Shown here: in pieces, positions 1,063 to 28,114 of the stretch
How the letters are laid out: each line of letters opens with the position of its first letter
Position numbering within the stretch: the stretch's first letter is position 1
Source: a virus
Direction: 5' to 3' (one strand)
Length of the DNA: 64,000 nucleotides
IMG/VR virus record: IMGVR_UViG_3300026518_000009
Location: 1-64,000 of that record
Translations under genes and position numbers: made by a program
Notes under the pieces: generated by a model
Seen by the model: the letters and a program-made list of their open reading frames with translations, nothing else
The model's database searches: none
What the model was told of the DNA's origin: nothing

Positions 1063-1064
1063 TA

Positions 1065-3554: not shown

Positions 3555-3785
3555 ATGTGGTATATTATTTTATTTGTAATAGGTCTTTTGTTAGGATTTA
3601 TTACTACATTATTATTTTCAAAAAAAATAAAACGTATTGAAAATGATATTAAAGAAGATATTACTAATATTCATAATCATATTAGTAATATTGATAATAA
3701 AATCGAAACTGTGATTACTAAAGCTAGTAAAGATGTAGATAAATTTAATGGTGGAGGTTCACCTAAAACAGATAGGAAGCAATAA
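3555..3785 (+). CDS. Small membrane-anchored coiled-coil protein
   Basis: A 76-aa protein: one N-terminal membrane helix (residues 2-20) followed by SKKIKRI, a coiled-coil stretch (residues 25-62) rich in I/N/D heptads, and a polar tail GGGSPKTDRKQ. This layout is common for phage lysis accessory or membrane-tethered proteins, but no family is recognised. It sits with the preceding four-helix membrane protein, so the two may work as a pair. Confidence 0.55.
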   Translation: MWYIILFVIGLLLGFITTLLFSKKIKRIENDIKEDITNIHNHISNIDNKIETVITKASKDVDKFNGGGSPKTDRKQ

Positions 3786-3823
3786 TAAAATTAAATAATT
3801 TTTATAAACTAAATTTTAAAGTA

Positions 3824-4300
3824 ATGAAAAATAAGGATTTGTATGTAGCATTAAATAATGTTGCAGTATTAAAAGGGTTAACTGGAGCTAAATTTCTTAT
3901 TGCACTTAAAAAAGCTAGAAGAGATATGCAAAATGAAGTTGATATTATTGAATCTTTAAAAACTGATAATGATAAATATAATGAGTTTTTAAAAGAGCAG
4001 ACTGAACTTCAAGAAAAATATAGTGTAATAGAAAATGGTAAACCTAAGACAGAAACTATTTTTGATGATAATAAGCAGCCTATAGGAAAAAAATATATTA
4101 TTAAAGAGGATAAAATAGATGAATTTAATACTAAATATAATAAATTAACTAAAAAGTATGAGCATGTATTAGATGATTATATTTCAGCATTAGAATTAGA
4201 TACTAAATATAATAAGATAAAACTTGCTAGCAGATATTTACCTGATAATATATCTTTTGAACAATACGAAATAGTTGATTTATTTCTTGACATTGTATAA
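3824..4300 (+). CDS. Coiled-coil protein of unknown function
   Basis: A 158-aa, mostly helical and highly charged protein. Residues 1-60 and 90-130 look like coiled coil and a short variable insert (FDDNKQPIGKK) lies between them. No catalytic motif or membrane helix is visible. It precedes the muzzle-like gene and a host-type promoter overlaps its end. Its place in the tail block suggests an assembly factor or small structural protein; I cannot name a family. Confidence 0.6.
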   Translation: MKNKDLYVALNNVAVLKGLTGAKFLIALKKARRDMQNEVDIIESLKTDNDKYNEFLKEQTELQEKYSVIENGKPKTETIFDDNKQPIGKKYIIKEDKIDEFNTKYNKLTKKYEHVLDDYISALELDTKYNKIKLASRYLPDNISFEQYEIVDLFLDIV

Positions 4301-8563: not shown

Positions 8564-10365
8564 TGATATATTCTAATTATAAAGGAAAAAATATAGAAAC
8601 ATATAGTACTGGTGGAATAATAGGTTCTACTTTAAGTGGCATTGGTAGTGGTGCTGGAATAGGAGCATCATTTGGACCTGAAGGAGCATTAATTGGTGCT
8701 GGTGTAGGTTTAATTGGAGGATTAGTAGAAGGATTAGTTAAAAATAGTGCTGAAAAAAAACAAGAAGAAGAAAGAGCTCGTAATGAATATGTTACTAGAG
8801 AACAAGCTAGAGCATTAGATGATGCAAATAGACTTAATAATTATTATACAAATGGTTATGATCAAGAAACTTTATATAATAAGGGTGGTATGATTAAAAA
8901 AGAACATAAAGGTAAATTTACAAGATGGGCTAAAGAACATCATATGACTTTAGCTGAAGCTACTAAAAAAGTATTAGCTAATAGAAATAAATATAGTCCT
9001 AGTGTAATTAAAATGGCTATATTTGCTAGAAACTTTGGTGGATATAATAATGGTGGAGAGATACCAACTATAAATACTAAATCTAATACTCATAAAATTG
9101 GAGATGGTATTCAAGTAACTGGAAATACTAATAAAGATAAAATTAAAGCCACAGTAGATGGAACTCCAGTTAAATTAGATAATAAAGAAATTGTTGTTCA
9201 ATATCATGGCAATCCAGTTGTTATATCTGATGATTTAGGCGAAGCTGATAAATATAGAGCAGAATTAAAAGCTGGTGGTAATCCTAAAAGAATAGCTGAT
9301 AAATATGCTATTAGAGCAATAATGTTAGAGCATAATAATAATAATCATTTAGCTGATGGTGGAATACCTATTGGAAATGATTTATATATAGATGGTACTG
9401 GAAAAATACATCATAAATATGAATATGTAACATTAACTAATCCTGAATATTATAATAGTTCTAATTATATAGGAGATAATACAAATATTATTCCTACTAC
9501 AAAAAATAACACTTTAACAAATAATAATTTAAATACTAATTATATTCCAATTGCTACTAAAACATTTGCTAATACTGTTAATAATCTTAATTATCCAACA
9601 GTAGAATCATTGAATATACCAACTAGAAATATAACTGGTAATATAAATAGAATTGGAAGTAATGATTTAAAATTAACGCCATTTAATTTTGGTGATGATA
9701 ATAATGGTAAGAATAGTTCTAATTCATTAAATATTACTGGACTTGCTCAAGGTGCTTCTGCATTAGGTAGTATTATTAGTAATATATCTGCTAATTCTAA
9801 ATTACAACATCTTAATATTCCTAGACCATATCTACCTCAATATGTCAATAGAAATATAAATGTAGATGCTCCTATTTTTGAACATCAAATTCATAGTTTA
9901 AATAGTGCCATTGGAAATCTTAGTGATAATGTATTAAATAATACTTCTAATTCTAATGTTGCATTAGCTAGATTAGGTTCATTAACTGATAAAAAAATAA
10001 GTGCTGAAAACAATATTTATTCTAACCAATTAGCTGATAGAAATAGAATTGAAAATGAGAATATTGCTCAACAAAATAGATTTAATCTAATTAATGCTAA
10101 TTTAATGAATAATTATAATAATCAACAATATCAAGCTAATATTGGTAAAATTCAATCAGATTTAGCATTAAGTGGAAGTACACTTGCAACAATTAATGGT
10201 CTTGTAAATAATATGAAACGTGATAAATATCAAAATGAATATTTACAAGCTATTGCAAAACAAGTAGGATTTAATCCTAATGGTAATTTTGACATTAATA
10301 ATTTAACTAGTATGCAGCAAGCACAGTTAACAAAATTATTAAGACAAGCTGGATTAACAAATTAA
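8563..10365 (+). CDS. Virion cargo-like protein with Gly-rich hydrophobic segment
   Basis: A 600-aa protein. Residues 17-60 are a Gly/Ala/Ile-rich hydrophobic stretch broken by GPEG, like a helical hairpin able to enter a membrane. A charged helix follows, then residues about 110-165 carry a basic module, HKGKFTRWAKEHHMTLAEAT, continuing to VIKMAIFARNFGG, which I believe recurs in crAss-like phage proteins. The rest is Asn-rich, with a helical tail. In phiCrAss001, cargo proteins encoded between muzzle and RNA polymerase are packed in the virion and ejected; position and the membrane-active segment fit that. No peptidoglycan-cleaving motif is evident. Confidence 0.58.
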   Translation: MIYSNYKGKNIETYSTGGIIGSTLSGIGSGAGIGASFGPEGALIGAGVGLIGGLVEGLVKNSAEKKQEEERARNEYVTREQARALDDANRLNNYYTNGYDQETLYNKGGMIKKEHKGKFTRWAKEHHMTLAEATKKVLANRNKYSPSVIKMAIFARNFGGYNNGGEIPTINTKSNTHKIGDGIQVTGNTNKDKIKATVDGTPVKLDNKEIVVQYHGNPVVISDDLGEADKYRAELKAGGNPKRIADKYAIRAIMLEHNNNNHLADGGIPIGNDLYIDGTGKIHHKYEYVTLTNPEYYNSSNYIGDNTNIIPTTKNNTLTNNNLNTNYIPIATKTFANTVNNLNYPTVESLNIPTRNITGNINRIGSNDLKLTPFNFGDDNNGKNSSNSLNITGLAQGASALGSIISNISANSKLQHLNIPRPYLPQYVNRNINVDAPIFEHQIHSLNSAIGNLSDNVLNNTSNSNVALARLGSLTDKKISAENNIYSNQLADRNRIENENIAQQNRFNLINANLMNNYNNQQYQANIGKIQSDLALSGSTLATINGLVNNMKRDKYQNEYLQAIAKQVGFNPNGNFDINNLTSMQQAQLTKLLRQAGLTN

Positions 10366-10375
10366 ATATAATATT

Positions 10376-12439
10376 ATGCCTGTACAACCCTATAATACAC
10401 GTTCACCATTAGCTTTTAATGTTTATCAACCTGATTTTATTGGTAAACCGATACAACAAATAGGTAATACTATGTTGTCTATGAGTAATGCAAATCATGC
10501 AATAGTTGACAATGCTAATAAATTACATATTGCATTATCTAATCTTAATATTGCTCCAATAGATCAAGATATATTGATTAAACAAAAGAATGATTTTGAT
10601 AATACAATAAATGATATTGCTAATAATGGTAATATTGAAACTGCACAAGCTAGATTAAATAAATTATATACAGATTATGCTACTAACAAAGGATTAAAAG
10701 CAGCTATTAGTAGATATGCCAGTTATAATCAACAGCGTGCAGCTATAATGAAAAATAAAAATAAATGGAATCCTAAAGATTATGCTTGGATGATGTCTAG
10801 ACCATTTACTAAAACACAAGCTGATGAGAATGGTTATTATGAGCCTTATGTATTACCAACATTATTACAAGAATATAATCCAACTAAAAATCTAGAACAT
10901 ATTGCTGATAAAACTCCATTTATTGATGTACAGGGAGGAATGCAAGAAATTAAAGATGCAAATGGTAATATTATAGGATATAAACAAATTGTTACTAAAC
11001 AAAAAGATATTAATAAATTACGTACTTCTTTATATAATGCTGTATTATCTGATGATAAGGCTGTAGCATATGCAAGACAAAGAGCTGCTATTGATAATGA
11101 ATATGGGATTAGAATGCAAGATAAAAATGGTAATATTAGACCAGTTACTGAAAATGATATTATTGATAAATGGATAACTCCATTAATACAACAATATGAT
11201 GTAAAAAGTGATGAAAGTAAATCTACATATGATTTAAAAGCTATGCAAGCTAATCAAGCTAATAATGATATTCCTCATGGAGAAAAAACAACAACTCCAG
11301 GAATGATCAGCAATAATACTTTACTTACTAAATTATCAAATTTAATTAATCCTGATTCAAATACTCCACATGGTTTACCTCAACATACTGCAGCAAATGT
11401 ATTAATGATGAGTGGATACGGAGTACCTGCATCTAGTAATAGTTTTAACGAAGTTCAAAAAGCAATAAAAAATCATGATAATGATACTAAAACTAATATA
11501 TTAAATAATATTCAATCTAATATTAATAAACTTGATCCTGCTCAAAAATCAATAATTAATGATAACATAAATAGATATTCTAGAAATACATATAATAAAG
11601 ACTTTAATTCATTATCTAACTCTGAAAAAATAAATGTTTATAAAACTATATCTACTGCATTAGAAAATAATAATAAACAAATTCATAATATTACTTATAC
11701 TAGATTCGATGTAAAAAGAGATGCTAATCAAATAAGAAACTATATTAATTTATTTACTAATAGTAGTAATGGCACAATTAAATCATCTAATGGAACTTCA
11801 TTAGTTAGTAATAATTGGGAAGGAAATAAGATATGGAATTATACAGATGGTAAATTAATGTCTAGTAGTGAAATGAAAAAATATCTTAATAAAGTACCTA
11901 AAGGAACTAGAGTAATGGTTGAAGGTAAAGTTGCAGCTAGTAATATACTAAGTAGTATCACAGGAGATTACGGATTTTCTGGTGGAATTGTTGTTAGTAT
12001 TGGTGGAAAACAATTTATTGTTGCTAGTAATATTGCTAATACTCATGAATATGGTAATCGTGGATATTCTATGGCTTATGATGCAGTTAACTCATTATCA
12101 AATAATAGAGATAGAATGTTTGATAGATATGTTCCATTAGATACTAAATATATTGTTCATGGTAAAGATTCTAAAAGTTATTTAGATAGTGTATTAGATG
12201 AACCTGCTGGAACATTTGATAGTGCAGCATATATGATGCCAGCAATTACTGGTAATGATGGTAAACCAATTATTGTTACTAATCAAAATGAATTACCATA
12301 TGCAAATCAATTAGTAATATTAGATAAAAATGGTAATATTATTAAAGATAAAAATGGTAATCCAGTAAAACCAATTAAAGCAGATAATGTAGATAAGATA
12401 TTTACTATTATAGGACAATATGCAAAAAATTCACGATAA
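10376..12439 (+). CDS. Virion protein between cargo and RNA polymerase genes (probable second cargo protein)
   Basis: A 687-aa protein. The N-terminus (PYNTRSPLAFNVYQPDF) suits a structural protein, residues about 40-140 are helical, and the middle is Asn/Lys-rich. No catalytic motif or membrane helix is visible. Spacing is 10 bases from the upstream gene and 12 from the polymerase gene, so it belongs to the same operon. By synteny it is probably packaged and ejected with the polymerase. It could instead be a chaperone for the giant polypeptide; nothing in the sequence decides this. Confidence 0.55.
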   Translation: MPVQPYNTRSPLAFNVYQPDFIGKPIQQIGNTMLSMSNANHAIVDNANKLHIALSNLNIAPIDQDILIKQKNDFDNTINDIANNGNIETAQARLNKLYTDYATNKGLKAAISRYASYNQQRAAIMKNKNKWNPKDYAWMMSRPFTKTQADENGYYEPYVLPTLLQEYNPTKNLEHIADKTPFIDVQGGMQEIKDANGNIIGYKQIVTKQKDINKLRTSLYNAVLSDDKAVAYARQRAAIDNEYGIRMQDKNGNIRPVTENDIIDKWITPLIQQYDVKSDESKSTYDLKAMQANQANNDIPHGEKTTTPGMISNNTLLTKLSNLINPDSNTPHGLPQHTAANVLMMSGYGVPASSNSFNEVQKAIKNHDNDTKTNILNNIQSNINKLDPAQKSIINDNINRYSRNTYNKDFNSLSNSEKINVYKTISTALENNNKQIHNITYTRFDVKRDANQIRNYINLFTNSSNGTIKSSNGTSLVSNNWEGNKIWNYTDGKLMSSSEMKKYLNKVPKGTRVMVEGKVAASNILSSITGDYGFSGGIVVSIGGKQFIVASNIANTHEYGNRGYSMAYDAVNSLSNNRDRMFDRYVPLDTKYIVHGKDSKSYLDSVLDEPAGTFDSAAYMMPAITGNDGKPIIVTNQNELPYANQLVILDKNGNIIKDKNGNPVKPIKADNVDKIFTIIGQYAKNSR

Positions 12440-12451
12440 TTTATTATAATT

Positions 12452-15400
12452 ATGCCAAATAATAATAACAATTCAATGTATAATGATGCAGATGCTTTAT
12501 TAAAAGATAACTCAGGAATGCATCCAAATATTACTCCAGTTAGTAAAATTGATATGGGAATAGGTGATTATAGTACATATGACCCTAATCCTGATAAATA
12601 TTCAAAAGGATTTGTACCTACTGGTAATCCTTTATCTTCTCAGGAAGGAGAACTAAGTCAATTTAAAGCTAATAATCAAACTACATTTCAAAAAATTGGT
12701 AATACATTAATTAAAGGTATATTAGAAATTCCAACTACAGCAGTAGAACCCCTTGGAACATTAGTTGATTTACCAATGTGGTTTAGTAGTGAAGAAAGAA
12801 TGAATAAGGGATATGAAAATTTCTTTACTAAGGCTATAAATAATACTAATGAAGATATTAATAAATCATTTCCTGTATATTTGCATAATGAAAATCCTAC
12901 TCCTATTACAAGTGCTGATTGGTGGTATCAAAATGGTTCTAGTGTAATTAGTATGTTAGGATTTCTTGGTACAGCTGGAGCTTTAGATAAAGCTGCTGGA
13001 ATGTTATTAGAAGGACTTGGGGATGCAATAGATGCTACTAAATTTGGAAGTGCTGTAGGTAAAACATTATCAACATTAGAAGATACTAGTATGTTTGGTG
13101 ATGCAGCTAGTGGATTAAAAACATTAAGTGAAACTGGTAAACTTAATCAATTAGGTTCAAGTTTATTATCATCCGCAGCATTAGCTCATAGTACTGGAAT
13201 GGCAGATGCAGCTCAAACATTTAAAATAGCTAAAGATAGATATACTCAATATTATAGTGAAAAATATCCTAATTTTACTCCTACTAAAATTAATGATTTA
13301 GCTAAACATGCTGCTGCTAAAGAAGCTGAAAAAACATTAAATAGACATTTAATAGATATATTATTTTATTCTGCTGGAATTGGTAATATGTTAAAAGGTG
13401 TTAAAGCTAGTAGTACATATGCAACACTAATGGGAGATGCAATGGTTAAAGATGTTGCACAAAGTACTGCTACTTTGTATGCTATGGGAGTTACTGATAA
13501 ATTTATATCTAATGAAGCATTAAGAGATATAAAAATAAATACTGGTCTTGAAAAAGATGATGGAAGTACATTAGTTGATAGATATTTAAAAGAAGCAGTT
13601 AGTAAGGAAGGACTATCTGCTGGTGCTGTTGGAGCATTAAATGCATTATTATTACAAGGATTTACTTATATGCGTACTCGTGGTGCTAGACAATTAGCAC
13701 TTGAACGTATGAAAGAAAATGCTAAGACTATTGGAGATAGTGATAAATTTGACAAACTTTCAAAACAACAATTTTTTGATTTAGTTTTAGATAATGCTGC
13801 AAAAGGTACAATGAAAAATGTATATGAAACATTAGAAAGTATTAGTAATCTTAAACCAGAAGAAGTTAATAAATTAGGATTATCTGATAATTACATGGAT
13901 AAAGCTAAAGAATATAGTGATATTGCATATAAAATTGAAGATGAGTATAATAAGTATACTGCTAAATATCCTAATCATCAAGAATTAGCAAATGAAATAG
14001 TAATCAATAGATATTTAGATAGAGATAATAGACGTGAAATTAATAAAGTAGATTTAAAGTTAAAAGAATTAAATAATACTGCTAATACTGATGAATTAAA
14101 TCATCCATTACATGATGTTAAATATAATTCTATTCAACGACAAGTTAATATATCATTAATAGATAGTTACTCATCTTTATTAGATAGATTTAAGGATAAG
14201 GATAATAATTATAGAGATATAGAAACTGGATTAACTAAAGATGAAATTCAATCTAAAATAGATAATTTAAAATTAAGAAATAGATTTATATTAGCTGAAA
14301 ATGAAAGATTAAAAACTAATTATTTAAAATCAATATTAAGTGATAATCCTACTAAAGAAGAAATTGATGCTCAAAAAGAATTAATTGATAATTACTTATA
14401 TACTATTGAAAAAGATAAGAATGGTAAAATTAATAAGAAATTAAATTTATCTGATTATGATGAAAAGTTAGCTAAATTATTACTTCAAAAAGCTGACTTA
14501 GAATCAAGTAGAGATGTTGCTAGTAAGAAAGCTTCACTATTAGATAATAGTAAAGAAGCACAAGAACAATATATAGAAGAAGCTAATAAACAATCTGAAA
14601 TATATTCTAAATTAATAAATAATACTAAAGAAGAAATAGCTAAAAATAAAACATTAACTCAATTAGATGAATATGAAAAAAATGCTAGAGAAACTGGTTC
14701 TCCTAACTTAGATAATCCTATTGTAAAAAATATGATTGATGCTCATAGAAAAGTACTAGAAAATAAAGCTAAAACTGATGCTAAGAAAGAGAAGATAATT
14801 AATTCTATTAAAAAGAGTAAAAATAAAGTTACAGAAGTTGTAGATAAATTAAAAAATAAAGAAGCTAATACTGTTGATGAAAAACCTATAAAACAAAATG
14901 AAGAGGATAAATTAAGTAATGAGTCAAATAAACAATCTGCATCATTTTCTTCTATTGGTATGCAGGATAATTCTTCTAAAAATACTAGTAAAACTCCTAC
15001 TAAAGAATCAATTAATTTACAAAATAAAATAGAGGAGTTAAAAAAGAATAATAGTAATATTGAGAAAGAATATAATATAGGTGATTATAAAAAGGTACAA
15101 AAATTAGCTAATAATTTTATAAATGGAAATCAAAATAATACTTCAGAAAATCAACAATTGTTAAATAATTATCCAAATCTCTTTGAAGAACTAATAAAAA
15201 ATACTAAAGATAATATATCTATTAATGATGAAACAGTAGCTAGTATTGAGACTAACTCAATTAAAACTGGTATAGAAGATGGTGATGCTGGAGAATTAAA
15301 TAAATCATTAGCTAATAAGTCAGATAATAAAATATCTGAAACATTAGTACAAGCTCATAATGCAATACATACTCAAGAGAATAATGGTTATAAAATATCA

Positions 15401-18400
15401 TTTACAATTAATGATGAAATTAATAGAATAGATGATAAAATTGTAGAAGGTGCTAATGCTGCTGCATATTTATCTTCTGATTATATTAGTATTGTAAAAA
15501 TATATAAAAGTGATAAGCGATCTAATAAAATAGATAGAAAAAGTATATCTAATGAATTTAAAGATGAAACTGCTAAAATTATAGCTAATACTATACAAAA
15601 AGGAGATATTGTTAAATTTGAAATTGATGCAGATTATATAAAAGAACATAATCTTGATTTAAATAATATGTCTGATGAAGATAGATTGCATAATACTCCT
15701 ATTATTGCTAAATATAAATATAATGGTAAATGGATTAAAACTTTTTATGTACATGAACCTGAATGGATTGCTAAATACACTGATAACGGATTATTAGTTC
15801 CAGATAATATAGCTGGAATTAAAATAGTAGATGGTACTCCAATTGATATTACTAAAGAACAATATGATTCTAATATTAAAATTAGGAAATATATATTAGA
15901 TAAATTAAATAATGGTGAAGAAGTAACTGCTACTATATCAGATAAGAAAAATGGTCATTTAATTGAGCATATTGCTATAGATAAAAATGGTAATTTTATA
16001 TTAAACGCAAATGGAGTTCCTAGAATTGAAAAAGGTAAAGTTAGTGAATTAATGCCTGAACATACTGAATTAGCAATAGCTGTATCTGATGACGTTATAT
16101 TAGGAAAAGGTAAATCATTAGGATTAAAATTAAATACAAATAATATTTATCCTGGAACTGTATTTAAAGTTGTTAGTACTAATGTAATTAATAATTTAAC
16201 TGGAGAAAGAGAAAAAGATATTATTCCATTAATTACTCCTAAAATTACTACACACCAACAAGTTGGATTTAATATAGAAAATTATCTAAAAATACATTTT
16301 AGTGATTATGATATTACTAAATTAAATGATGATTATAAGAAGTTTAGTAATACTACTCAAAATTTATTTGATAGAAATAATAGTAATAGTTTATTTAAGT
16401 TCTTAGATAATTATCTTCAATTAAAAAAATTTAATATAGATACTTTAATAAGAAGTCCGAAAGGAAAATATTTATTCAATGTAGATAAGGATGGTACTTT
16501 TAGTTTTGGAAGTACTACAAGTGAGGTATTGTATTCTGCAAAAATAGAAGATGGAAAATATATATTTACTAGTGAGATAGCATCAGGTATAACTAAGGAT
16601 TTAACTCTAGATGAATTTATGATTAAGTTTAATAATGCATTACATGATAAACAATCATTTATTCCATTTGCAGTTAAATATACTAAAATAAATGGACAAG
16701 ATATTTCAATACATGAACCAATTATTCATGCTCATAATCAAATAGGAATTAAAAATAGAACAAATGATGATTTTGAAATAACTAATGTAAATACATTTAA
16801 AAATTATAATAGATTTGTAGAAGATAAATTACAAACTACATTTGTTGGTACTAATAAAGATAGTGATGGAAACTATATTTATTTTACTCAACCAAATCTT
16901 CATTTTAACATTGCAGAAGAAATGAAGCCTGAAAATGTAGAACATATTAATTCAGATTTAGATAATATATTAAATAATACATCTGAAGAAGGAGTTGATT
17001 TAGATAATATACTTAATGATGAAGCTAATAATGACGGTAGACCATCAATAAATAGTGTTGAAGCAGATGATAAAGAAACTACTATATATAATAATGATGA
17101 TATTAAAACTACAAGCGATTATTATATAAAAGAGTTTGGTTCATTTACCCAACAAAAACAAATTGCTAATTCATTAATTAAACCAATTTTAAGATTATAT
17201 ACTGAACAAGTATTAAATAATAGTAGTGAATTATCAAAATTAAATCATTCAGAATATTTTAATCAAAAATATTTACAGTTAGTAAAAATTAAAGATATAC
17301 TTAGTAATATTAAAAGTAAATTTGATATTGACAAATTATCTATAAATGATAAAGATAAAAAGTTTCTAGCATCTCTTGGAATTGATTATAGATTAAACAA
17401 CGCTAATGAATTGTTATCTGATATGTTAAAATATTATGAGATAACTACAAAACCAGACATTTATAAAAAATTAGTAGAACATGCTAAATCGGAATTAAAT
17501 AATATTGGAATAAATACTAAAGGTAAAGAATTTAATTTTGAAGGATTTGAAGAAAATGAAGATGGTGAAAATAATTTATATGAAACTGCTAAATATGATG
17601 ATAAAGCTAGATTAAAATTAAACGATAAGCACATATCTAGTCCATTATTTAAAGCTTTTTTATATACTATTCCATATACAGAATCTAAAGATGGTAAAAA
17701 TATTGCTAAACGTAATGTACTTGGATTAGATATGTATGCTAATATTGATGATATATATAATAAACTTCATAGTATTTCAATGGATAAAGTTCTTACATTT
17801 GATGATATGATGAAGGTATTACGTTCTCAACAAACAGTATATCCAGTATTTAAAACTATAGCTGACAGATTAAATAATGATATAATGATACCAGTTCAAA
17901 CTGAAATGGTTAATTATATGGCTAAATATAGGCACGAATTACAAACTGCTATTGAAAGTAAATTTAATAAAGCAACATTAATAAATAATAATTCTACTAC
18001 TGGTAAATATGGTATATTTAACGATTGGAGAAATAAATTTAATATAAGTAATTATATTATTGCAAAGGATGATAATTCATTTGAATATGATATTGATAAA
18101 ATAAATGAACTTAAATCTAATTATAGTAAAGCATATGACTTATACAAAAATGATTATTTAAATCCTAAATTTCAAAATATATTTAAAAATATATTATCTA
18201 AATTTGGAATAGATTTATCTAATAGAACAATTAATACAATATTTGAATTACCAAATAGTATTGAGAAAGCTAATATAGAACAAATATTAAATCCAAAAGC
18301 ATCTAATTCATTTATTGGAATGCTATTTAGATTATCTAATTCTAAAGGTGATATAGATAAGATTAGTCCATTTAATAATAAAGCTATTTCTAAATATCTA

Positions 18401-21400
18401 TTAAATATTGCAAAAGTTGAAGATATATTTAGTGATAAAGTATTTGATAATTCTGCTATAGATGGTTCTGGTAATTTAATATTTGAGCCTCAAGATTATA
18501 ATTATCTTAAAAATACAGTAAATGATATATTAAATCCTAATGGTAATAAGCTTTCAGATCTATTAAAAGCTTCATTTAGTAAACATTCATTATGGTTGAA
18601 TGCTATTGCATCAAATTCTAATATTAGAAAGAATTTTAAAGTATCATTTTTTGATTCATATAAATTAGGAAATAATAGCAGCAATGCTACAGAACGTAAA
18701 TTATTAACTGAATCTAATCAAAATAAAATAGCATTAGATATATTTGCTAATAGTACACATGATAGAACTAATTTCTTTGGATTAACATTTGGTGAAAATT
18801 CAACATCTCCTATATTTACTACTGCTAGACAAGATATTAAATTATATTTTGATGAAGAAGGTGGTAAAATAAGAGTTGATGATAATACAGTAGAACTAGC
18901 ATTTAATCAAGCATTAAATGAAATAGAAAGAATAAAAACATTTCAAGATACTATTAAAAAAACTAAATTTAGTGACTATAATAATGGTGCAGAAACATTC
19001 TTTTTATATAGATATTTAAATAAGGATGAACTTAGTAAAATTATTAGTAAGGATGAATTAGGTGAGATATATACAGGAAATAAACTAGAAATTACTCCTA
19101 ATGGTATTAATATTATTAAAGATGTTATTAGAAGAAAGTTAGAAGAACATATTGAAAATACAATAGCTGATTTCGAAGAACATAATAATATTAAATCTAA
19201 AGAAATACAAATAAAAGATAAAAATAAGGATGAAGTTAAAACAGTAAAAATATATACTCCAGATAATCTTAGTAAACAATATAGTACTGATAAAACATTT
19301 AAACCTGTAAACATTAGTGGTAAAACTGAATATTATAAAAATAAAACTTTATTAGAGAGTGATACATTAAGAAATACTATAGCTAATTTTGCTATTCAAA
19401 GTAAATTAGCTAATGCAGAAATGTATTATATGCTAGCTGATCCTGCTATTATGACGAAAGTAGATAAGGATGGTAAAGTTGATATTGAAGCTACATTTAA
19501 AAATTTACAAAAGAGATTAAAAGGTGCATTATCTCCTCATATTACTGGTAATTGGACTACTCCTACATTTAGAAGTGTTACAGCTAAAGATAGAATTATT
19601 GATAGTAAACATTTAAATGAATATCATGATAAATTAAAAATTAATGGTTATAAAGAGTTAGAAACAACTGATGGTTTTGAACTTACTACATTAAAAGAAG
19701 ATATTGAATTTAGATTGGCTAATAATCTCATTAAACCAAATATAGCTAAATCAATATTAAACAAAATTAAAAAAGTTAGTAATACAGAAGATAGATATTT
19801 TGAATTAGATAATATTGAAAAGGATGCTATATTTAATGTAAATAAACCTATATTATATAGTAGTAAATATTACCCTGATGAAGATGTTAATATGATACAT
19901 TTTCGTAAATCTAGTGCTATGCCATTACTTCCAGAAATGACTAGAGGATTACCTTTAGATAAAATTAGAGTTGCTATGGAAAGAGATGGAGTCGATAGAG
20001 TTGGATTTAATACTACTGATAAATTAGGTAAAACTGAATTAGCTACTTTATTTGATAAAGAAGGAAATATACTAAATAATATTAGATTTAACGATAATCA
20101 AATACAAACTATTAATAGAGATGTATTTGGTATGCAACAACATATTCCAACTGATAATCATGAAGTAGCAGTTATCACACAGCTTAATTCATTAGCATTA
20201 GATGGATTATTAGATACTAAAGGTTTTAAATATAAAGATAAGACATATAATGGACATCAACTAAGAGATAAGAAGGAAGAATTAAAAATAAAATTATTTG
20301 AGTTAGGAAAACAAAGAGTATTAAATAGATTTGGAATAGAAGAATCAAATGGTGAATATAAATTTACTAATTATAGTGGACTAAAAAAATTATTATTAAA
20401 TGTAGCTAAGAAGAACAATTGGAGTGATATTGATATTCAACAATTAGGTATTACAAAAGATGGTAAAAGTTTTAAATTTCCATTAATATTTAATAATAGT
20501 TTAGATAGAATACAATCTGCTTTAGTTAGTTATTTAAATAAAGAAATTATAAAAATTAAATTTAATGGTAGTGGTGATGTTCAAGTACCAGATTTAGGAT
20601 TTGGTAAAGCTATTACTACAGACTATAATAAATTATCTGATAGTGAAAAATCTAATTTAAAGGCTAATACTATATTTATAGATGGATATAATAATAATAC
20701 TTTAGATGCATATGGAATAAATAATGATAGTAGTGTTAGACGTATGCAAGTATTAGTATCGTGGGGATTTACTGATAATACTGGTAATCTTTTAGATATT
20801 AATAAATTTACAAAAATAAATGATGATGGTAGGTTAGTAATAGATACTGATAAATTACCTAAAGAAGTATTAGAAGGTATATATACTCGTATTCCTAAAC
20901 AAAAACATGGAAGTACTGTACCATTTGAAATAGTAGGTTTTCTACCTGAAAATATGAAAAAAACTGTTGTAGTTGCAGATGGTATTACAGAACAAATGGG
21001 TTCTGACTTTGATATTGATAAGATGTATAGCTATCTTAAATATAGATATCTTGATAAAGATGGCAAATTTAATGTTGTAAGTAAAGATACCAAAGATGAT
21101 ATAGAACATAAATTAGAATTAATTAACGAATATAAAACATTACAAGAACAATTTGGTGAGTTAGTTAGTAATAATAAAGCATATGTTGAGATTGATGGTA
21201 AAAAGAAATTAACTGAAATTGGAAGAAAAATACAAGATAAAATTGATGAAATTAAAACTGAAGTTAATGATAATTTAGATGAACAATATTATAAACAATT
21301 ATTAAAAATAAACACTGAAGATAATGTTATTAAAAATGACTATGTAGATTTATTAAACTCCATTTATACTCATCCAGATGTAGCTAAAATTGCATTAACT

Positions 21401-24400
21401 CCATTAACAAATACTGATTTAGATAATGAAATATTAAGACAGAAGTTTAGTACATATTCAGATATTACTGATTGGAAATATCAAAGAGATAGTTATAATT
21501 TACAACAAAATGGTAAAGATTTAATTGGTATTATATCATTAGCTAATATTTATAATGCTCATGCTCAAGCTCACACGTTAGAACTTGGTAAGATATTAAG
21601 AGATAAAATAAAAATATTAGATGATACTGGAAATGTTTTAGATTTAAATTATTTAGGTGGAACTGCTAAATCTAAATTCATAGACGATAATAACAATGTT
21701 ATAATTAGGAGTAAATCTGATAATATTCAGACATTACAGGATGCTGCTGTAGATAATGGTGCTAATCCTAAATTGGGATACTTGGGAGTAAATGTAAATA
21801 ATATTAATTCTATTATTACTGCATTACGACTAAAAACTAATGATAATGAATCTATGAACATTAACTTTATACTTAGATTAATTAAAATACCATTAGTAAA
21901 AGAATATCTTAATAATATACTAGAGTTTAAAAATAATAATGATTTTGAACATAGAGGGTTTGAATTAAAATATGCAAATGATAAATTAGAAGAGAAGTAT
22001 AAGGATGATTTATATAAAGATAATGATAAATTATTATCTGCTAAAATGCTATTAGATGCAATAAATGATGATAATATTACTAATTCAACTGCTACTTCTG
22101 CTTTAGAATTATTCAAAAAATTATATAAACTTGGTGATGCAGAAGCTAAAGTGATGAGTACTGTTATGAGTGCTATTAGAAACGGTGCTGGTAAAAATAT
22201 ATATGAATCTATGGGTTTAGCAAACAGATTATATTCTGATGTCATTAATAATGAATATATTCCAAAAGCTTATGAATTATTAGGAGATTTAAAATATGAT
22301 AAAAATAATAGACCATACATAGATTACAAAACTGAATTAGGAAAGGCATTTGAAAATAGTGTTATATTTACCAATCAGTCATTAGGAAGATTATTAAATA
22401 TAAATACTCCTAAATTAAGAACTGTATTTAGTGAATTATACAACAATAATATCCCATTAAATGCTAAGAATATTAAAGGAGTTGTAGATGAATACAGAAC
22501 TGCTATATTATCTAGTAAATCTGGTATAGTACCTAATGATATTGTTAGACAAGAAAGATATAGATTATTATATGGTAAAACTTCATTATGGAATAGAATA
22601 CAAGATTATCTTAAAACTAATGATAATAAATTTTTAGATGAATTAAAAATTAAATCAGTACCTGGCAAAGATATTGCAAAGCGTATTGCTTATGATAATA
22701 CTAAAGGTAAGAACATAAGTGAAGTTGACAATATAAATTATATCAATGAGATGTTATATTCTGATAATCTAGAATTAAAGAGTATCGGTGAAGATTTAGT
22801 TAAATATAGTTATTTAGTTTCTCCTATATTTAATACTATAAGTTTTACTAGATTTATTAGTACCAAATATTTGGAAGAATTAGGAGTAGATAAAAATCTT
22901 AGAAATATAAATATAACAAATGTTCCTATGGATGGCAAAACTAATGTTAATACAGAAGCATTCATAGCTCAACAATATCAACATAAGCCATATTTAGCAA
23001 TTAATCTAAATACTGATGGAATTGATATAATTAAATCACATTTTGGAAGTAAAGGATTTAGAGAAGAAGTTGCTGTTAATCTAGATAAAAAAATATTTAA
23101 TGGTAAAGTTCCTAATTTTTTATCTGATAATTATAAAGATAATAATGGTAGTAGAACATGGTTATTATATGAATATATAGGAGTAAATAATAATAATGAA
23201 TATGTATATAAAAGAATTGATACTGCTGGTAATGCTAATAAGCAAGGTAAATATATAAAAGAATATAATCTTAATACTAGAAGAATTATAAGTTTATTTA
23301 ATGATAATCAACATGATTATAATTATAAAGGTATTGAAAAGATTATAAGTAGACCTACAGAAATAAATGACGAAACTCCTACTACTAACTCTTTGCCAAA
23401 TATTACAGCTGTAGATAAATACGCTAAAGATGGTAAATTAACAAGTACATTAAAAGAAATAAAATCTAATGATTATTATAGTTTAATTGCAGATACATTT
23501 AGTAAATATTTTAAACATACTACTGATGTTAATTTTGCATTTGATAATAGTTTACCAAATAATATTGCTGGTATATATAAAGATGGATTAATTAGAATGA
23601 ATGGAAACATTGATTTAGATAATCCAAAAAATATAGATACATTCGAAGCTAAGATATTACATGAATCAGCACATGCTATAACTGATAAGTTGATAGATAA
23701 TTATTTTAATAATAAATCAGCTAATACTAAAGAAGTAAATGCTATATTAGATAGACTTAATGAAGTATTTATTCATAGTAGAAATAAAATAATTAGTAAT
23801 AGTGATAAGGAAGAATATTTAAAAGATTTAATTAACAAATTTAGTAAACTAAATAAAAATGATAAATTATCTATATCCAAAGAAGATGCTAAATATTATG
23901 GATTTACTGATTTACATGAGTTTATTAGTGAAACTATAAGTAATAATAAATTTAGAGAATTACTTAATAATGTAAAATATAACAAAGATAGAACTGTACT
24001 AGATAAGATTAATGGTTTATTACAAAAAGTATATAAAACTATATTAAAATCATTCGGATTGGATGTTAAGCCAAATACTGCATTAGACTATACATTTAAT
24101 GAGATATTTAATTTAATGCACGAAAATAGTAAATATGATAATTTTGATGACTTAAAAGTTGATGGTAATGATTTTGCTAATAAAACAGTAGTTGAAAAAG
24201 CTAATGATAATATAGTAGATAAATTAAATCTAGATAAAAAAGCAATACTTACTAAAGATGAATTATCTATAATCGCTAGAAATACCGATACAAAAGAAAA
24301 TATGCTAGATAAAGACCCCTACTCAGATACTTATATTCCTACTCAAGATCCTACTAATAATAATATAGCATCAAATTATAAAGTATTTACTAAAGAAAGT

Positions 24401-27400
24401 ATTATATCAGGACTTAGAGAACGTGGAGTTATAGATAATAATGGTAAAATATTAGATAAAAATACAATATATAAACTTCAACAAAAATTAGGAGATAGAG
24501 TATTATCTATTAAAAATAATACATTAGAAATTAATGAATCTGAACTAGCTAACTATAATACTAAACTTAAAGAATATGCTGCTAATAATACTGGACAAGT
24601 ATATAGCACTCATAATTCTATAATAACTACAGAACATTCTCCAGAAATTAAAAAAATGATTAACGAGTATAATATACTTATTAGTAAATATAATTATAAG
24701 CTTACTGGAACAATGTCTAATAAAGAGAGAGCTATTATTGAAACTAGAATAGATAAATTACGAGAATTTAGAGATGAATTAATTGAAAATGATTCTATAG
24801 ATACTATTAAAACTATAGCTAATAAACAATTAGATTTAGCTCATTCTATATTAAATAAAAAAGAATTAACTCATTTAGATATTCAAGCCGCATCTGATAT
24901 AGCTAGTATGTGGAATAAAAATACTACAGATAACTATTTAACAGCAGAACAAAAATTAAATCCTGAGAATAGTGAATATAAAGTATATAGGGAATTAAAT
25001 ACAAGAGCGATTGATATAGATAATGAAGTATTATATCATGCTAGAGAATTAGCACTTGATTATATAAATAATACTATCGGATTTAATAAAGAAATTAAAT
25101 TAAAAGATTTATTAGCAATACATGATATTCCTTATTTTAAAGCTACATTTATGGATTTATTTAAAGCTAAAAGTCCATTATTACAAACTATTGGAATGGT
25201 ATTATCTATTGCTAATAATGGACCAAATGGTGTTATACTTGAAATGAATAAAACAGTAGATGATATATTTAAACCTATAGAAAATGATAAAAGTATAAAA
25301 TCAATTGTTGGTAATAATTTTGATATATTTCATAAAAAAGATTCAAAAGGAAATATTTTACTTAGTTTAGTAGAACGTACAAGTGCTAAATGGGATGAAG
25401 ATTTAGCTAATTTTAAGAATAAATTATCTTTATTAGATAATCAATTTGACAATGGTATTATTAAAGATAAAAATACTTATTTAAAAAGAAGATTTGCTGA
25501 AATTAGAAAACAGAATAAAAAACAGATATTAGTTGATATTGTAGCATTAGGTCTTACTGGTAGAGTTAATAGTAGACAAAGACCTGGGTATAAATTTGAT
25601 GACCCTAGTGAATATAAACAATATCTAGTTGATGAATTAGGAAAAAATATTGCTGAAGAAGTTATTGAAAATGCAAAAAGTGAATATCAACAATATTTAA
25701 ATGATAAAGAATATAAAACTGAACTAATTAATGATTCTGATTTAAGTAAAGAAGAAAAAGATGTAGAACTAAAAAAATGGATAAAAGATAATAATCCAGA
25801 ATTAACGTTAGATAGGATATTTACTGGAGAAGATATAGATGGTGGAAGTAATGGATTTAAATATATAGTTAAAATACCTAGAAGAAGAATTAAGCAAGGA
25901 GATAAATATATTGATACTGGATATTATGATAAAGATTTTGAGAAAATAATGGCTAATGATAAATTAAGAGAGATATATAATAAACATAATGAATTATTAA
26001 CTAAATTCTTAATTAAATTACCTAGATTAACAACTAATAATTTAGATACTAATTTCTTACCTGGAGTACTAAAATCATCTTATGATACAATGTTTAAAAG
26101 TGAAGATTCTAGAATGAATATATTAAATTCTAAATTAATAGAGTCAATAGCTTCTACTGATGTTAGAAAACTTGTTGGAGATAAAATTAAATTATATGTT
26201 AAATCAGATATACATGGTAAAATATTAAAGAGTATTCCTATACATTATGTAGAACATACTCAACCAGATTATATGTATTCAACAGATTTAAAATATAACT
26301 TGAAAAAGTTTGGAGAAATGGCATTAAATTATGAATATAAAAATGCTATGGAACCAGTATTATTTACATTACTAAAGGTATTAGATAATGCTAGAGAAAT
26401 ACAAACTACTGATAGTGGAGCAAATATATACAATGAAAATGGGGAATTACAAACTAAAGATAATGGTTTAGTAATGTCTCATAAATTGGTAGATAACTCT
26501 ATTGCAAAAATAATGTATGATGAAGGATTAAAACATAAATATAGTTCTAAGGTAATTCATAATCCTCCTAGTATGAATGAAGTAAAATTAGTTACACTTC
26601 GTAGAAAGTTAGAAAGGGGTGAGATAACTAAAGATGAATATGATTCTAAGTCTGCTATTATTAGTAAATCAGATGATAGTCAAATAACTTTATTAAATGC
26701 TAAACAACAACATATATTAAAAAGATTAGGATTACAAATAGAAAATGATTATCATAAATTAGAAAATGATTTTGAAAATAATAATATTTCAGAAGAAGAA
26801 TATAATACAAAATTAAATAGATTAGAAAAAGATTATGAAGCATTAGGTGGAAGAAATTTATCTACTACAAAAGTTGCTGATAAATTTTTATATCTAACTC
26901 AGATGAAAGGTATGGCGTTAAACTTTACTTCAGGTATGGGTAACTTTTTATATGGAATTATTGCTATGTTTACTCATGCTAATGGTAGAGTTGAATTTAA
27001 TAATAAAACAGCTTTTAAAGCAATGAATGAAGTATTATCAACTAGATTAAAATCTAAAGAAGATAATAAAGTATATAACATAATGAAGAATGGTAATATT
27101 GTATACGATACTATTGATGCTAGACATGACACTGTTAAAAGTAGTGATATGTTTAAACAAGTTCATAATTTAGATTTTTATGTATTTCAAAGTCAAACTG
27201 AGTATTTAATTCAAGCAATGTCATATATAGCTAAAATGATGCACTATAAGGTAGAAGATAAAAATGGAAATACAATAAGCTTATATGATGCATATAAGAA
27301 TGATGGAACTATTGATATTGATAAAATGGGTGAGGATTTTGCTAATAGATGGAATCATATTACAAAACCAGGAGAGGTTAATGATTTTGTTAATTTTAGA

Positions 27401-28114
27401 GAAAGTGGAATTGAGTTAAATAAAATGTTACATGGTAATTATGATCCTAGTAGTCCTAAATTAATAAATAGTACATTATTCGGTAAAGCTTTAATGCAAT
27501 TTAGAAATTGGATACCAGAAGGAATATTTAGTAGATTTAGTGATGAGTTTTATGATCGTAGATTAGGTAGAACTATAAAAGGTAGATGGACTACATATGG
27601 TGAATTAGGAATAGGTGGAAGTCTTAAAACACTATTAAAACAAATATTATATAGACCAGATGCATTTATTATTGATGGTGAAAAGATGAAAGATGTAGAT
27701 ATAGAAAATATGCGTAGAAATCTAGGTGAGTTAGCTGTTGCTGTAAGTATTCTTGGAATGATGCTTGGTCTTAAAGCTATTATTAATTGGAATAAAGATG
27801 AAAATAATGGTGGAATAGGAGCTTCTAGTGCTATGGTAGCATATAATATATTGTTTAGAGCTAATCAAGATATATACTTTTATAATAATCCTAAAACATT
27901 TTACAATATTCTTCGTTCTCCATTACCAGCAACAAAAGTATTTACTGACTTTATGAATGCTGCACATGGAAGTTATAAAGAACTTACACAAGATAATTAT
28001 AGAGGTCAAAGTTGGTATAGTAAATGGGCAAAAGTATTTCCTATATTAAATCAAGCACCTAAATGGGATTATTATGCTAATAATATGTTAAAGACTAATT
28101 ATGGTTATCAATAA
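12452..28114 (+). CDS. Giant virion RNA polymerase polypeptide (5220 aa) with embedded zincin domain
   Basis: One uninterrupted frame of about 600 kDa. Residues 2849-2859 (MGSDFDIDKMY) carry DxDxD at D2852, D2854 and D2856, the metal-binding loop of the two-barrel RNA polymerase of crAss-like phages (phi14:2 gp66). YTRIPKQ and the strand EIVGFLPE lie just upstream, as expected for the second barrel. Residues 3737-3741 (HESAH) form an HExxH zincin motif. Residues about 150-240 are Gly/Ala-rich, 430-900 strongly coiled-coil and Lys-rich, and hydrophobic helices occur near 4821 and 5091-5113. In many relatives this content is split over several large genes; here it is one. In phi14:2 the enzyme is injected and transcribes early genes. 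The zincin may process the polypeptide; that is inference. Confidence 0.88.
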   Translation: MPNNNNNSMYNDADALLKDNSGMHPNITPVSKIDMGIGDYSTYDPNPDKYSKGFVPTGNPLSSQEGELSQFKANNQTTFQKIGNTLIKGILEIPTTAVEPLGTLVDLPMWFSSEERMNKGYENFFTKAINNTNEDINKSFPVYLHNENPTPITSADWWYQNGSSVISMLGFLGTAGALDKAAGMLLEGLGDAIDATKFGSAVGKTLSTLEDTSMFGDAASGLKTLSETGKLNQLGSSLLSSAALAHSTGMADAAQTFKIAKDRYTQYYSEKYPNFTPTKINDLAKHAAAKEAEKTLNRHLIDILFYSAGIGNMLKGVKASSTYATLMGDAMVKDVAQSTATLYAMGVTDKFISNEALRDIKINTGLEKDDGSTLVDRYLKEAVSKEGLSAGAVGALNALLLQGFTYMRTRGARQLALERMKENAKTIGDSDKFDKLSKQQFFDLVLDNAAKGTMKNVYETLESISNLKPEEVNKLGLSDNYMDKAKEYSDIAYKIEDEYNKYTAKYPNHQELANEIVINRYLDRDNRREINKVDLKLKELNNTANTDELNHPLHDVKYNSIQRQVNISLIDSYSSLLDRFKDKDNNYRDIETGLTKDEIQSKIDNLKLRNRFILAENERLKTNYLKSILSDNPTKEEIDAQKELIDNYLYTIEKDKNGKINKKLNLSDYDEKLAKLLLQKADLESSRDVASKKASLLDNSKEAQEQYIEEANKQSEIYSKLINNTKEEIAKNKTLTQLDEYEKNARETGSPNLDNPIVKNMIDAHRKVLENKAKTDAKKEKIINSIKKSKNKVTEVVDKLKNKEANTVDEKPIKQNEEDKLSNESNKQSASFSSIGMQDNSSKNTSKTPTKESINLQNKIEELKKNNSNIEKEYNIGDYKKVQKLANNFINGNQNNTSENQQLLNNYPNLFEELIKNTKDNISINDETVASIETNSIKTGIEDGDAGELNKSLANKSDNKISETLVQAHNAIHTQENNGYKISFTINDEINRIDDKIVEGANAAAYLSSDYISIVKIYKSDKRSNKIDRKSISNEFKDETAKIIANTIQKGDIVKFEIDADYIKEHNLDLNNMSDEDRLHNTPIIAKYKYNGKWIKTFYVHEPEWIAKYTDNGLLVPDNIAGIKIVDGTPIDITKEQYDSNIKIRKYILDKLNNGEEVTATISDKKNGHLIEHIAIDKNGNFILNANGVPRIEKGKVSELMPEHTELAIAVSDDVILGKGKSLGLKLNTNNIYPGTVFKVVSTNVINNLTGEREKDIIPLITPKITTHQQVGFNIENYLKIHFSDYDITKLNDDYKKFSNTTQNLFDRNNSNSLFKFLDNYLQLKKFNIDTLIRSPKGKYLFNVDKDGTFSFGSTTSEVLYSAKIEDGKYIFTSEIASGITKDLTLDEFMIKFNNALHDKQSFIPFAVKYTKINGQDISIHEPIIHAHNQIGIKNRTNDDFEITNVNTFKNYNRFVEDKLQTTFVGTNKDSDGNYIYFTQPNLHFNIAEEMKPENVEHINSDLDNILNNTSEEGVDLDNILNDEANNDGRPSINSVEADDKETTIYNNDDIKTTSDYYIKEFGSFTQQKQIANSLIKPILRLYTEQVLNNSSELSKLNHSEYFNQKYLQLVKIKDILSNIKSKFDIDKLSINDKDKKFLASLGIDYRLNNANELLSDMLKYYEITTKPDIYKKLVEHAKSELNNIGINTKGKEFNFEGFEENEDGENNLYETAKYDDKARLKLNDKHISSPLFKAFLYTIPYTESKDGKNIAKRNVLGLDMYANIDDIYNKLHSISMDKVLTFDDMMKVLRSQQTVYPVFKTIADRLNNDIMIPVQTEMVNYMAKYRHELQTAIESKFNKATLINNNSTTGKYGIFNDWRNKFNISNYIIAKDDNSFEYDIDKINELKSNYSKAYDLYKNDYLNPKFQNIFKNILSKFGIDLSNRTINTIFELPNSIEKANIEQILNPKASNSFIGMLFRLSNSKGDIDKISPFNNKAISKYLLNIAKVEDIFSDKVFDNSAIDGSGNLIFEPQDYNYLKNTVNDILNPNGNKLSDLLKASFSKHSLWLNAIASNSNIRKNFKVSFFDSYKLGNNSSNATERKLLTESNQNKIALDIFANSTHDRTNFFGLTFGENSTSPIFTTARQDIKLYFDEEGGKIRVDDNTVELAFNQALNEIERIKTFQDTIKKTKFSDYNNGAETFFLYRYLNKDELSKIISKDELGEIYTGNKLEITPNGINIIKDVIRRKLEEHIENTIADFEEHNNIKSKEIQIKDKNKDEVKTVKIYTPDNLSKQYSTDKTFKPVNISGKTEYYKNKTLLESDTLRNTIANFAIQSKLANAEMYYMLADPAIMTKVDKDGKVDIEATFKNLQKRLKGALSPHITGNWTTPTFRSVTAKDRIIDSKHLNEYHDKLKINGYKELETTDGFELTTLKEDIEFRLANNLIKPNIAKSILNKIKKVSNTEDRYFELDNIEKDAIFNVNKPILYSSKYYPDEDVNMIHFRKSSAMPLLPEMTRGLPLDKIRVAMERDGVDRVGFNTTDKLGKTELATLFDKEGNILNNIRFNDNQIQTINRDVFGMQQHIPTDNHEVAVITQLNSLALDGLLDTKGFKYKDKTYNGHQLRDKKEELKIKLFELGKQRVLNRFGIEESNGEYKFTNYSGLKKLLLNVAKKNNWSDIDIQQLGITKDGKSFKFPLIFNNSLDRIQSALVSYLNKEIIKIKFNGSGDVQVPDLGFGKAITTDYNKLSDSEKSNLKANTIFIDGYNNNTLDAYGINNDSSVRRMQVLVSWGFTDNTGNLLDINKFTKINDDGRLVIDTDKLPKEVLEGIYTRIPKQKHGSTVPFEIVGFLPENMKKTVVVADGITEQMGSDFDIDKMYSYLKYRYLDKDGKFNVVSKDTKDDIEHKLELINEYKTLQEQFGELVSNNKAYVEIDGKKKLTEIGRKIQDKIDEIKTEVNDNLDEQYYKQLLKINTEDNVIKNDYVDLLNSIYTHPDVAKIALTPLTNTDLDNEILRQKFSTYSDITDWKYQRDSYNLQQNGKDLIGIISLANIYNAHAQAHTLELGKILRDKIKILDDTGNVLDLNYLGGTAKSKFIDDNNNVIIRSKSDNIQTLQDAAVDNGANPKLGYLGVNVNNINSIITALRLKTNDNESMNINFILRLIKIPLVKEYLNNILEFKNNNDFEHRGFELKYANDKLEEKYKDDLYKDNDKLLSAKMLLDAINDDNITNSTATSALELFKKLYKLGDAEAKVMSTVMSAIRNGAGKNIYESMGLANRLYSDVINNEYIPKAYELLGDLKYDKNNRPYIDYKTELGKAFENSVIFTNQSLGRLLNINTPKLRTVFSELYNNNIPLNAKNIKGVVDEYRTAILSSKSGIVPNDIVRQERYRLLYGKTSLWNRIQDYLKTNDNKFLDELKIKSVPGKDIAKRIAYDNTKGKNISEVDNINYINEMLYSDNLELKSIGEDLVKYSYLVSPIFNTISFTRFISTKYLEELGVDKNLRNINITNVPMDGKTNVNTEAFIAQQYQHKPYLAINLNTDGIDIIKSHFGSKGFREEVAVNLDKKIFNGKVPNFLSDNYKDNNGSRTWLLYEYIGVNNNNEYVYKRIDTAGNANKQGKYIKEYNLNTRRIISLFNDNQHDYNYKGIEKIISRPTEINDETPTTNSLPNITAVDKYAKDGKLTSTLKEIKSNDYYSLIADTFSKYFKHTTDVNFAFDNSLPNNIAGIYKDGLIRMNGNIDLDNPKNIDTFEAKILHESAHAITDKLIDNYFNNKSANTKEVNAILDRLNEVFIHSRNKIISNSDKEEYLKDLINKFSKLNKNDKLSISKEDAKYYGFTDLHEFISETISNNKFRELLNNVKYNKDRTVLDKINGLLQKVYKTILKSFGLDVKPNTALDYTFNEIFNLMHENSKYDNFDDLKVDGNDFANKTVVEKANDNIVDKLNLDKKAILTKDELSIIARNTDTKENMLDKDPYSDTYIPTQDPTNNNIASNYKVFTKESIISGLRERGVIDNNGKILDKNTIYKLQQKLGDRVLSIKNNTLEINESELANYNTKLKEYAANNTGQVYSTHNSIITTEHSPEIKKMINEYNILISKYNYKLTGTMSNKERAIIETRIDKLREFRDELIENDSIDTIKTIANKQLDLAHSILNKKELTHLDIQAASDIASMWNKNTTDNYLTAEQKLNPENSEYKVYRELNTRAIDIDNEVLYHARELALDYINNTIGFNKEIKLKDLLAIHDIPYFKATFMDLFKAKSPLLQTIGMVLSIANNGPNGVILEMNKTVDDIFKPIENDKSIKSIVGNNFDIFHKKDSKGNILLSLVERTSAKWDEDLANFKNKLSLLDNQFDNGIIKDKNTYLKRRFAEIRKQNKKQILVDIVALGLTGRVNSRQRPGYKFDDPSEYKQYLVDELGKNIAEEVIENAKSEYQQYLNDKEYKTELINDSDLSKEEKDVELKKWIKDNNPELTLDRIFTGEDIDGGSNGFKYIVKIPRRRIKQGDKYIDTGYYDKDFEKIMANDKLREIYNKHNELLTKFLIKLPRLTTNNLDTNFLPGVLKSSYDTMFKSEDSRMNILNSKLIESIASTDVRKLVGDKIKLYVKSDIHGKILKSIPIHYVEHTQPDYMYSTDLKYNLKKFGEMALNYEYKNAMEPVLFTLLKVLDNAREIQTTDSGANIYNENGELQTKDNGLVMSHKLVDNSIAKIMYDEGLKHKYSSKVIHNPPSMNEVKLVTLRRKLERGEITKDEYDSKSAIISKSDDSQITLLNAKQQHILKRLGLQIENDYHKLENDFENNNISEEEYNTKLNRLEKDYEALGGRNLSTTKVADKFLYLTQMKGMALNFTSGMGNFLYGIIAMFTHANGRVEFNNKTAFKAMNEVLSTRLKSKEDNKVYNIMKNGNIVYDTIDARHDTVKSSDMFKQVHNLDFYVFQSQTEYLIQAMSYIAKMMHYKVEDKNGNTISLYDAYKNDGTIDIDKMGEDFANRWNHITKPGEVNDFVNFRESGIELNKMLHGNYDPSSPKLINSTLFGKALMQFRNWIPEGIFSRFSDEFYDRRLGRTIKGRWTTYGELGIGGSLKTLLKQILYRPDAFIIDGEKMKDVDIENMRRNLGELAVAVSILGMMLGLKAIINWNKDENNGGIGASSAMVAYNILFRANQDIYFYNNPKTFYNILRSPLPATKVFTDFMNAAHGSYKELTQDNYRGQSWYSKWAKVFPILNQAPKWDYYANNMLKTNYGYQ

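Follow-up and report, generated by a model that had tools for sequence, protein, structure and literature searches.

How does a phage store proteins of several hundred kilodaltons and eject them in sequence when its tail is narrower than the folded proteins? This question is raised by one gene in the window, the stretch of 64,000 nucleotides analyzed here. The fused gene, together with the cysteine pairs at the chain ends of its split relatives, suggests one answer, a single covalent thread. We consider it likely that the complete transcription cargo that a crAss-like phage packs in advance is encoded here as one N-R-C polypeptide, which would be ejected as one thread.

The gene for this fused virion RNA polymerase cargo was called at 12452–28114 of the plus strand, on which all features given below also lie. 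Its 5220 codons (translation table 11) begin with an ATG directly after a co-directional gene and specify a chain with a computed mass of 597.1 kDa that contains 90 methionines and no cysteine. The initial annotation had described one open frame of 5220 residues, filling almost a quarter of the window and encoding a chain of about 600 kDa. This description holds, with the gene occupying 24.5% of the window and about one fifth of a probable circle of ~78 kb. In a random frame of such composition, ~496 stops are expected and the probability of meeting none is ~1e-226. Codon usage trained on the other genes of the window favored frame 1 in 102/102 sliding segments; no frameshifted or non-coding stretch was therefore seen, and the frame is coding throughout. 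The virus record from which the window comes has 80,246 bases, and its ends overlap at 95–96% identity, so that a nearly complete circle of ~78 kb is probable. The overlap is inexact and lies within tail-fibre-like genes (window 1–2301 and L103 14264–16246), with strain mixture, duplication, or imperfect closure as candidate readings.

The giant gene is the last of a plus-strand block and is followed by an early block on the opposite strand. The plus-strand block includes a 1405-aa tail protein in the muzzle/stabilization position (4346–8563; six cysteines), identified by sequence comparison as a relative of the cr127_1 and Fpv1 proteins and showing 27.7% identity to its named Crassvirales relative. 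Two cysteine-free proteins follow in the gp45 and gp46 positions. Both are probable ejected cargo proteins, the first of 600 aa (8563–10365) by gene order and the second of 687 aa (10376–12439) by gene order and composition. The large terminase subunit (59544–61856) was 46.7% identical to that of cr127_1 (Crevaviridae), which, as far as sequence comparison indicates, places the phage in or next to the Crassvirales; both the terminase and the tail protein agree with membership in this order. The phage infects gut-type bacteria.

Profiles of three modules, designated N, R, and C, were derived from relatives and used to map about 80 loci. When rebuilt without the window, they matched its chain with E-values of 2.2e-22 (N), 2.3e-87 (R), and 1.6e-52 (C), and none of them matched the reversed chain or 50 shuffled chains. 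The N module (residues 18–228; 12503–13135) is homologous to the N-terminus of the cargo protein of the phi14:2 gp67/crAss001 gp47 type; it was found only with the family profiles, and N-terminal tblastn and pattern searches returned no relative. The R module (residues 2319–3153; 19406–21910), recognized by profile and model, is the core of a two-barrel RNA polymerase of the phi14:2 gp66 type. The C module (residues 4789–5215; 26816–28096), recognized by profile and tblastn, is homologous to phi14:2 gp65 and crAss001 gp49. In tblastn, the middle of the chain matched phi14:2 gp66, Fpv1, and many crAss-like phages, and its end matched the crAss001 "RNA-polymerase subunit" and others. The N-R-C order was constant across the about 80 loci, except for crAss001 with N on the other strand. 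The window carries all three cargo modules in this order; they follow tail and cargo genes and face the opposite-strand early block. A composition scan located the only strongly hydrophobic 19-residue stretch of the chain at residues 5094–5112 (27731–27787).

The catalytic motif DFDID was found where the initial annotation had placed it, at residues 2852–2856 (21005–21019), in the conserved context GSDFDIDKMY (residues 2850–2859) of a DxDxD motif. DFDID is invariant in alignment A1, but the 65 sequences of A1 were retrieved by that motif and its invariance there is by selection; R was found independently by profile. Residues 2400–3500 (19649–22951) were modelled by AlphaFold2 without templates, with the phi14:2 sequence present in the alignment (pLDDT 81.6, pTM 0.84). 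Foldseek matched this model to 6vr4, the structure of phi14:2 gp66, with E 2.4e-32 and TMq 0.71, the next-best match having E 0.047. According to this model, in which the barrels were not delimited by hand, the chain contains a gp66-fold RNA polymerase with two double-psi barrels, as had been expected for the region around residue 2850. Together with the N, R, and C profiles, the fold match supports the original reading of a virion-type RNA polymerase in one chain with its partner proteins, and we confirmed that these are separate genes in phi14:2 (gp67/gp66/gp65) and in crAss001 (gp47, apart from gp50 and gp49). A PDB profile match obtained with A1 was discarded as circular, because A1 contains phi14:2 (L041), and was replaced by the leave-out profiles and the fold comparison. 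No Pfam family scored above the cut-offs for the giant chain, and a single-sequence PDB search with it did not find gp66. The R module is of the two-barrel gp66 kind and not a T7-like domain of the N4 type; no N4 vRNAP was among the matches listed for the R profile. The model of residues 3600–4780 was poor (pLDDT 56.9), and no fold search was made from it.

Cysteine is absent from the 5220 residues of the window chain and from all six complete fused chains (32,479 residues). The probability of no cysteine in 5220 residues is ~2e-17 at the rate of the early genes of the window and ~3e-5 at that of its other left-hand plus-strand genes. The cargo chains of split relatives contain 0.06–0.14% cysteine vs. 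0.78% in other genes, and in most split lineages these residues are confined to the chain ends: N has one at −1 to −4 from its C-terminus, R starts with M(A/S)C and ends with a cysteine, and C again starts with M(A/S)C. The ends of the N, R, and C genes were surveyed in loci L003–L102 and L112–L185. Cysteines stood on both facing ends at 93/93 R/C splits (62/62, then 31/31) and at 44/47 N/R splits (38/40, then 6/7), where the second figures come from 41 loci fetched after the rule was stated, one assignment accepts an alternative start codon, and the junctions are not independent samples because the phages are related. The exceptions were L075 (broken frame), L053 (cysteine at −18), and L133 (cysteine at −32). 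No cysteine was found at the outer ends, either at the start of N (0/71) or at the end of C (0/104). Among control ORFs of at least 500 aa on the same contigs, a cysteine near an end occurred in only 4/68 and 16/86 cases.

Partial fusions followed the same rule. In low-cysteine lineages, N+R fusions had only the C-terminal cysteine left, at the end facing C, and R+C fusions only the N-terminal one, at the end facing N. The window itself has neither a split nor a cysteine and appears, from this comparison, to be the fused counterpart of the split cargo with cysteines at facing ends and none at outer ends; the fused giant completes a series that exposes a regular cysteine rule. The crAss001 gp47 keeps its terminal cysteine although its gene lies on the opposite strand from gp50, so the signal lies in the protein. 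A nucleic-acid reason for the terminal cysteines was rejected, since their positions vary and crAss001 keeps them on opposite strands. The proteins directly upstream of N had no cysteine in 38/38 loci (20,881 residues). N4 gp50, gp51, and gp52, all of them ejected, also have none, and the absence of cysteine in N4-like vRNAPs has been linked to passage through the tail and periplasm (PMC3715699, PMC2784036, PMC3915230). Descriptions of paired terminal cysteines were not found in the literature searched, which comprised openly licensed papers. The rule provides a cheap marker of ejected virion proteins and of true gene splits. Cysteine exclusion is, however, not universal: the Intestiviridae keep the end cysteines yet tolerate internal ones, and many internal cysteines were observed in the cargo chains of that family and of L042, L049, L056, L072, and L074, with the end cysteines retained also in L042, L049, L056, and L072. 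In these lineages the exclusion is possibly relaxed in strictly anaerobic settings. In the cyanobacterial Leptolyngbya phage Lbo-JY46 (L080), N and the C-bearing module had the same terminal cysteine pair, and R was not recognized by the profile.

The presence of cysteines in pairs at splits, their pairwise loss at fusions, and their absence from outer ends point to an end-to-end link between neighboring chains, most likely a disulfide. On balance we lean towards the view that in Crassvirales a single covalent thread may hold the transcription machinery during loading and ejection, with disulfides at splits, peptide bonds at fusions, and all cysteines purged when the chain is fused. The N-R-C chain would be packaged in the head and threaded, partly unfolded, through the tail and the cell envelope; in the host the ejected chain would refold, and R would transcribe the early genes, which here form the opposite-strand block. 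Where the cargo is split, disulfides between adjacent chain ends would form in the oxidizing virion or periplasm. The bacterial cytoplasm is reducing, and there the couplers would be undone, freeing the polymerase. In the window phage, peptide bonds would replace the couplers at both joints, so that R would either work still tethered to N and C, as the N4 vRNAP works as one chain, or be released later by a zincin at the R/C joint. Fused or split, the cargo would arrive as the same object, which would explain the free fusing and splitting among relatives (17 changes on a 44-row tree). The literature searched, again openly licensed papers, did not contain such a redox-released "train coupling" for protein ejection, as this would be. 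The crAss001 proteins gp45, gp46, gp47, gp49, and gp50 are virion proteins, the cargo of this phage can pass constrictions under 50 Å only in a partly unfolded state, and its virions contain disulfides in the tail (PMC10172136).

We infer the disulfides, like the uncut ejection and the refolding, from sequence, and the terminal cysteines of split chains could instead dock by metal or serve another purpose. They may be docking or metal-binding tails, or belong to an unrelated step such as packaging, and a fused chain would then need none. This reading is unlikely but deserves serious weight, as the disulfides have sequence support only and the cytoplasm is reducing; the pairwise loss on fusion, the lack of cysteines at outer ends, the near exclusion of all other cysteines, and the occurrence of disulfides elsewhere in the crAss001 virion speak against it and for the covalent thread.

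The initial annotation held that the chain must be packaged and ejected or else be cut first; this is a genuine choice, in which the cysteine pattern favors one thread. The chain may also be cut, which is possible because a zincin stands intact at the R/C joint. This zincin-type metallopeptidase domain (residues 3663–3836; 23438–23959) was recognized by a PHROG match, its motif, and alignment A2. It contains HESAH at 3737–3741 and a downstream glutamate, within EFISE, that is nearly invariant in A2, and its strands and helices are visible in the low-confidence model of residues 3600–4780. The domain has the features of a polyvalent-protein zincin (MPTase), namely the HExxH helix, the third-ligand glutamate, and the three-strand core, and it may act on its own chain. 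It matched PHROG 2206, "virion RNA polymerase," with E 2e-7. This is the N4-like virion RNA polymerase family, and the match falls directly behind the T7-like domain, the place given to the HExxH domain in the published N4 structure (PMC12633501). The zincin link to N4 rests on the PHROG match and this published work, the Z2 profile having matched the N4 vRNAP alone weakly (5.8 bits). Weak resemblance of the window zincin to the ejection protein gp48 (8vb2) and to internal virion proteins of Pectobacterium phages was also observed, and as a side reading it may be a domain shared among ejected proteins.

Two types of zincin occur among the relatives. Each belongs to one joint, R/C or N/R, and phages differ in the side of the gene split on which it stands: a zincin of the R/C type stands near the start of phi14:2 gp65, equivalent to that of the window, and a zincin is found at the end of crAss001 gp47. 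No zincin was seen at the N/R joint of the window chain. In four fused chains (L050, L059, L067, and L069), the relative of the N/R zincin has lost both histidines (YHEAFH to YWEAFR), an observation drawn from these four and from L038, L040, L044, L046, and L058. No HExxH occurs anywhere in the four chains, and full fusion therefore does not generally require an in-chain zincin.

The chain could be a polyprotein from which the zincin at 3663–3836, or another protease, releases N, R, and C before the cargo is packaged or while this happens. The position of an intact HExxH...E zincin exactly at the R/C joint fits this well, as does the second type at the N/R joint of many relatives, and autoprocessing by such domains has been proposed earlier (PMC5512222). 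We nevertheless judge it improbable, for zincins are also present where the chains are already separate (phi14:2 gp65, crAss001 gp47), the other fused clade has only a dead zincin, the window has none at the N/R joint, and the N4 vRNAP, which has a zincin of its own, enters the virion unprocessed (PMC5512222). Tethered work or late cutting of the thread is favored over cutting before packaging.

Internal translation starts that yield separate R or C proteins in addition are very improbable: the 90 methionines of the chain provide many in-frame ATGs, but nothing in the comparison requires such starts, and no start of the M(A/S)C type exists inside the chain, since it has no cysteine. The probability that the giant frame is an assembly artefact, three genes merged by lost stop codons or a mis-join, is practically negligible: the record is of the metagenome type and its ends overlap imperfectly, but the codon phase is intact along the whole frame, an artefact would require the simultaneous disappearance of two start/stop pairs and four terminal cysteine tails, and similar single frames occur on independent contigs (L050, 5636 aa; L069, 5639 aa; L067, 5520 aa; L059, 5472 aa; L115, 4992 aa).

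Among described phages, phi14:2 (Steigviridae) has the same three modules in the same order, the same DFDID, and the same fold (6vr4) in gp67, gp66, and gp65, but in three genes with a lone cysteine at each of four facing ends, in contrast to the one gene without cysteine of the window. The homologous modules of crAss001 (Kehishuvirus primarius) gp47, gp50, and gp49 were shown in virions by mass spectrometry (PMC10172136); unlike the window, crAss001 has three genes with gp47 on the other strand, terminal cysteines, and the zincin at the gp47 end. In p-crAssphage (Carjivirus communis; gp45 and gp44), cr110_1, cr271_1, ctbg_1, and cr127_1, R+C form one chain of 4070–4620 aa and N is encoded apart, with paired cysteines where N and R are split, whereas in the window both joints are fused. 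Flavobacterium phage Fpv1 (4401 + 1596 aa) and L132 belong to the window's own clade in the R tree; R lies there within a long upstream extension, so N+R are probably fused, but C is separate and couplers are present (..IKNCN facing MACT.. and ..VKCRK facing MSKKC..), whereas the window has no split. Complete N+R+C fusion without cysteine, as in the window, was found in L115 and in the L050/L059/L067/L069 clade. L115, with HEMVH at 3717, is nearest to the window in architecture; the other clade has the dead zincin at the N/R joint. The vRNAP gp50 of coliphage N4 (Schitoviridae) is likewise a giant single-chain ejected polymerase without cysteine, with an N-domain/RNAP/zincin/large helical C-domain layout similar to that of the window, but it has 3500 aa and its RNAP is of the unrelated T7 type. 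Thermus phage P23-45 gp96 (5002 aa) is also a giant virion protein with a fused two-barrel RNAP, located at its N-terminus and fused to the tape measure protein of a long tail (PMC10770324).

Four architectures were thus distinguished. N, R, and C are split in phi14:2, cr111_1, Dulem virus 41, and crAss001 (N on the other strand). N+R with separate C occurs in cr1_1 and cr4_1 (by size and position), in many IMG/VR contigs, and probably in Fpv1; N with R+C occurs in p-crAssphage, cr110_1, cr271_1, ctbg_1, cr127_1, L009, and L013. Complete N+R+C fusions occur in the window and, beyond it, in five or more complete IMG/VR chains (L050, L067, L069, L115, and, by length, L059, in which N was not detected), and none was annotated in any reference genome examined. 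Partial giant crAss RNAP fusions and giant RNAP genes were described earlier (PMC10136315, PMC7886860, PMC10770324), including giant proteins of "up to ~6000 aa" (PMC10136315), and the 4070-aa R+C protein of p-crAssphage is annotated as "RNAP catalytic subunit fused to unknown RNAP subunit." The giant crAss RNAP fusion is therefore known in part already, and relative to the references and papers examined the complete fusion and the cysteine rule are new.

According to our R tree, the window belongs to a clade (100/97) with the fused L115/L116 and with L132 and Fpv1, in which C is separate; the other fused group (L050/L059/L067/L069) forms a separate 100/100 clade. Full fusion required three changes on the last R tree; an AU test with a smaller set and a simpler model did not reject a single fused clade (p 0.112). 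One row of the 44-row tree, on which the 17 architecture changes were counted, was labelled from a frameshifted contig. L116 had been a candidate for a split sister of L115 with a terminal cysteine; it was rejected because of a frameshift in its contig and left out of the counts. A search for nearer relatives using Fpv1 returned only near-copies of Fpv1. A fragment of a crAss-like DFDID polymerase was also observed between runs of N in a Candidatus Aenigmatarchaeota MAG (L113; CP070801.1), and its presence in this archaeal chromosome is most likely a scaffolding or binning error.
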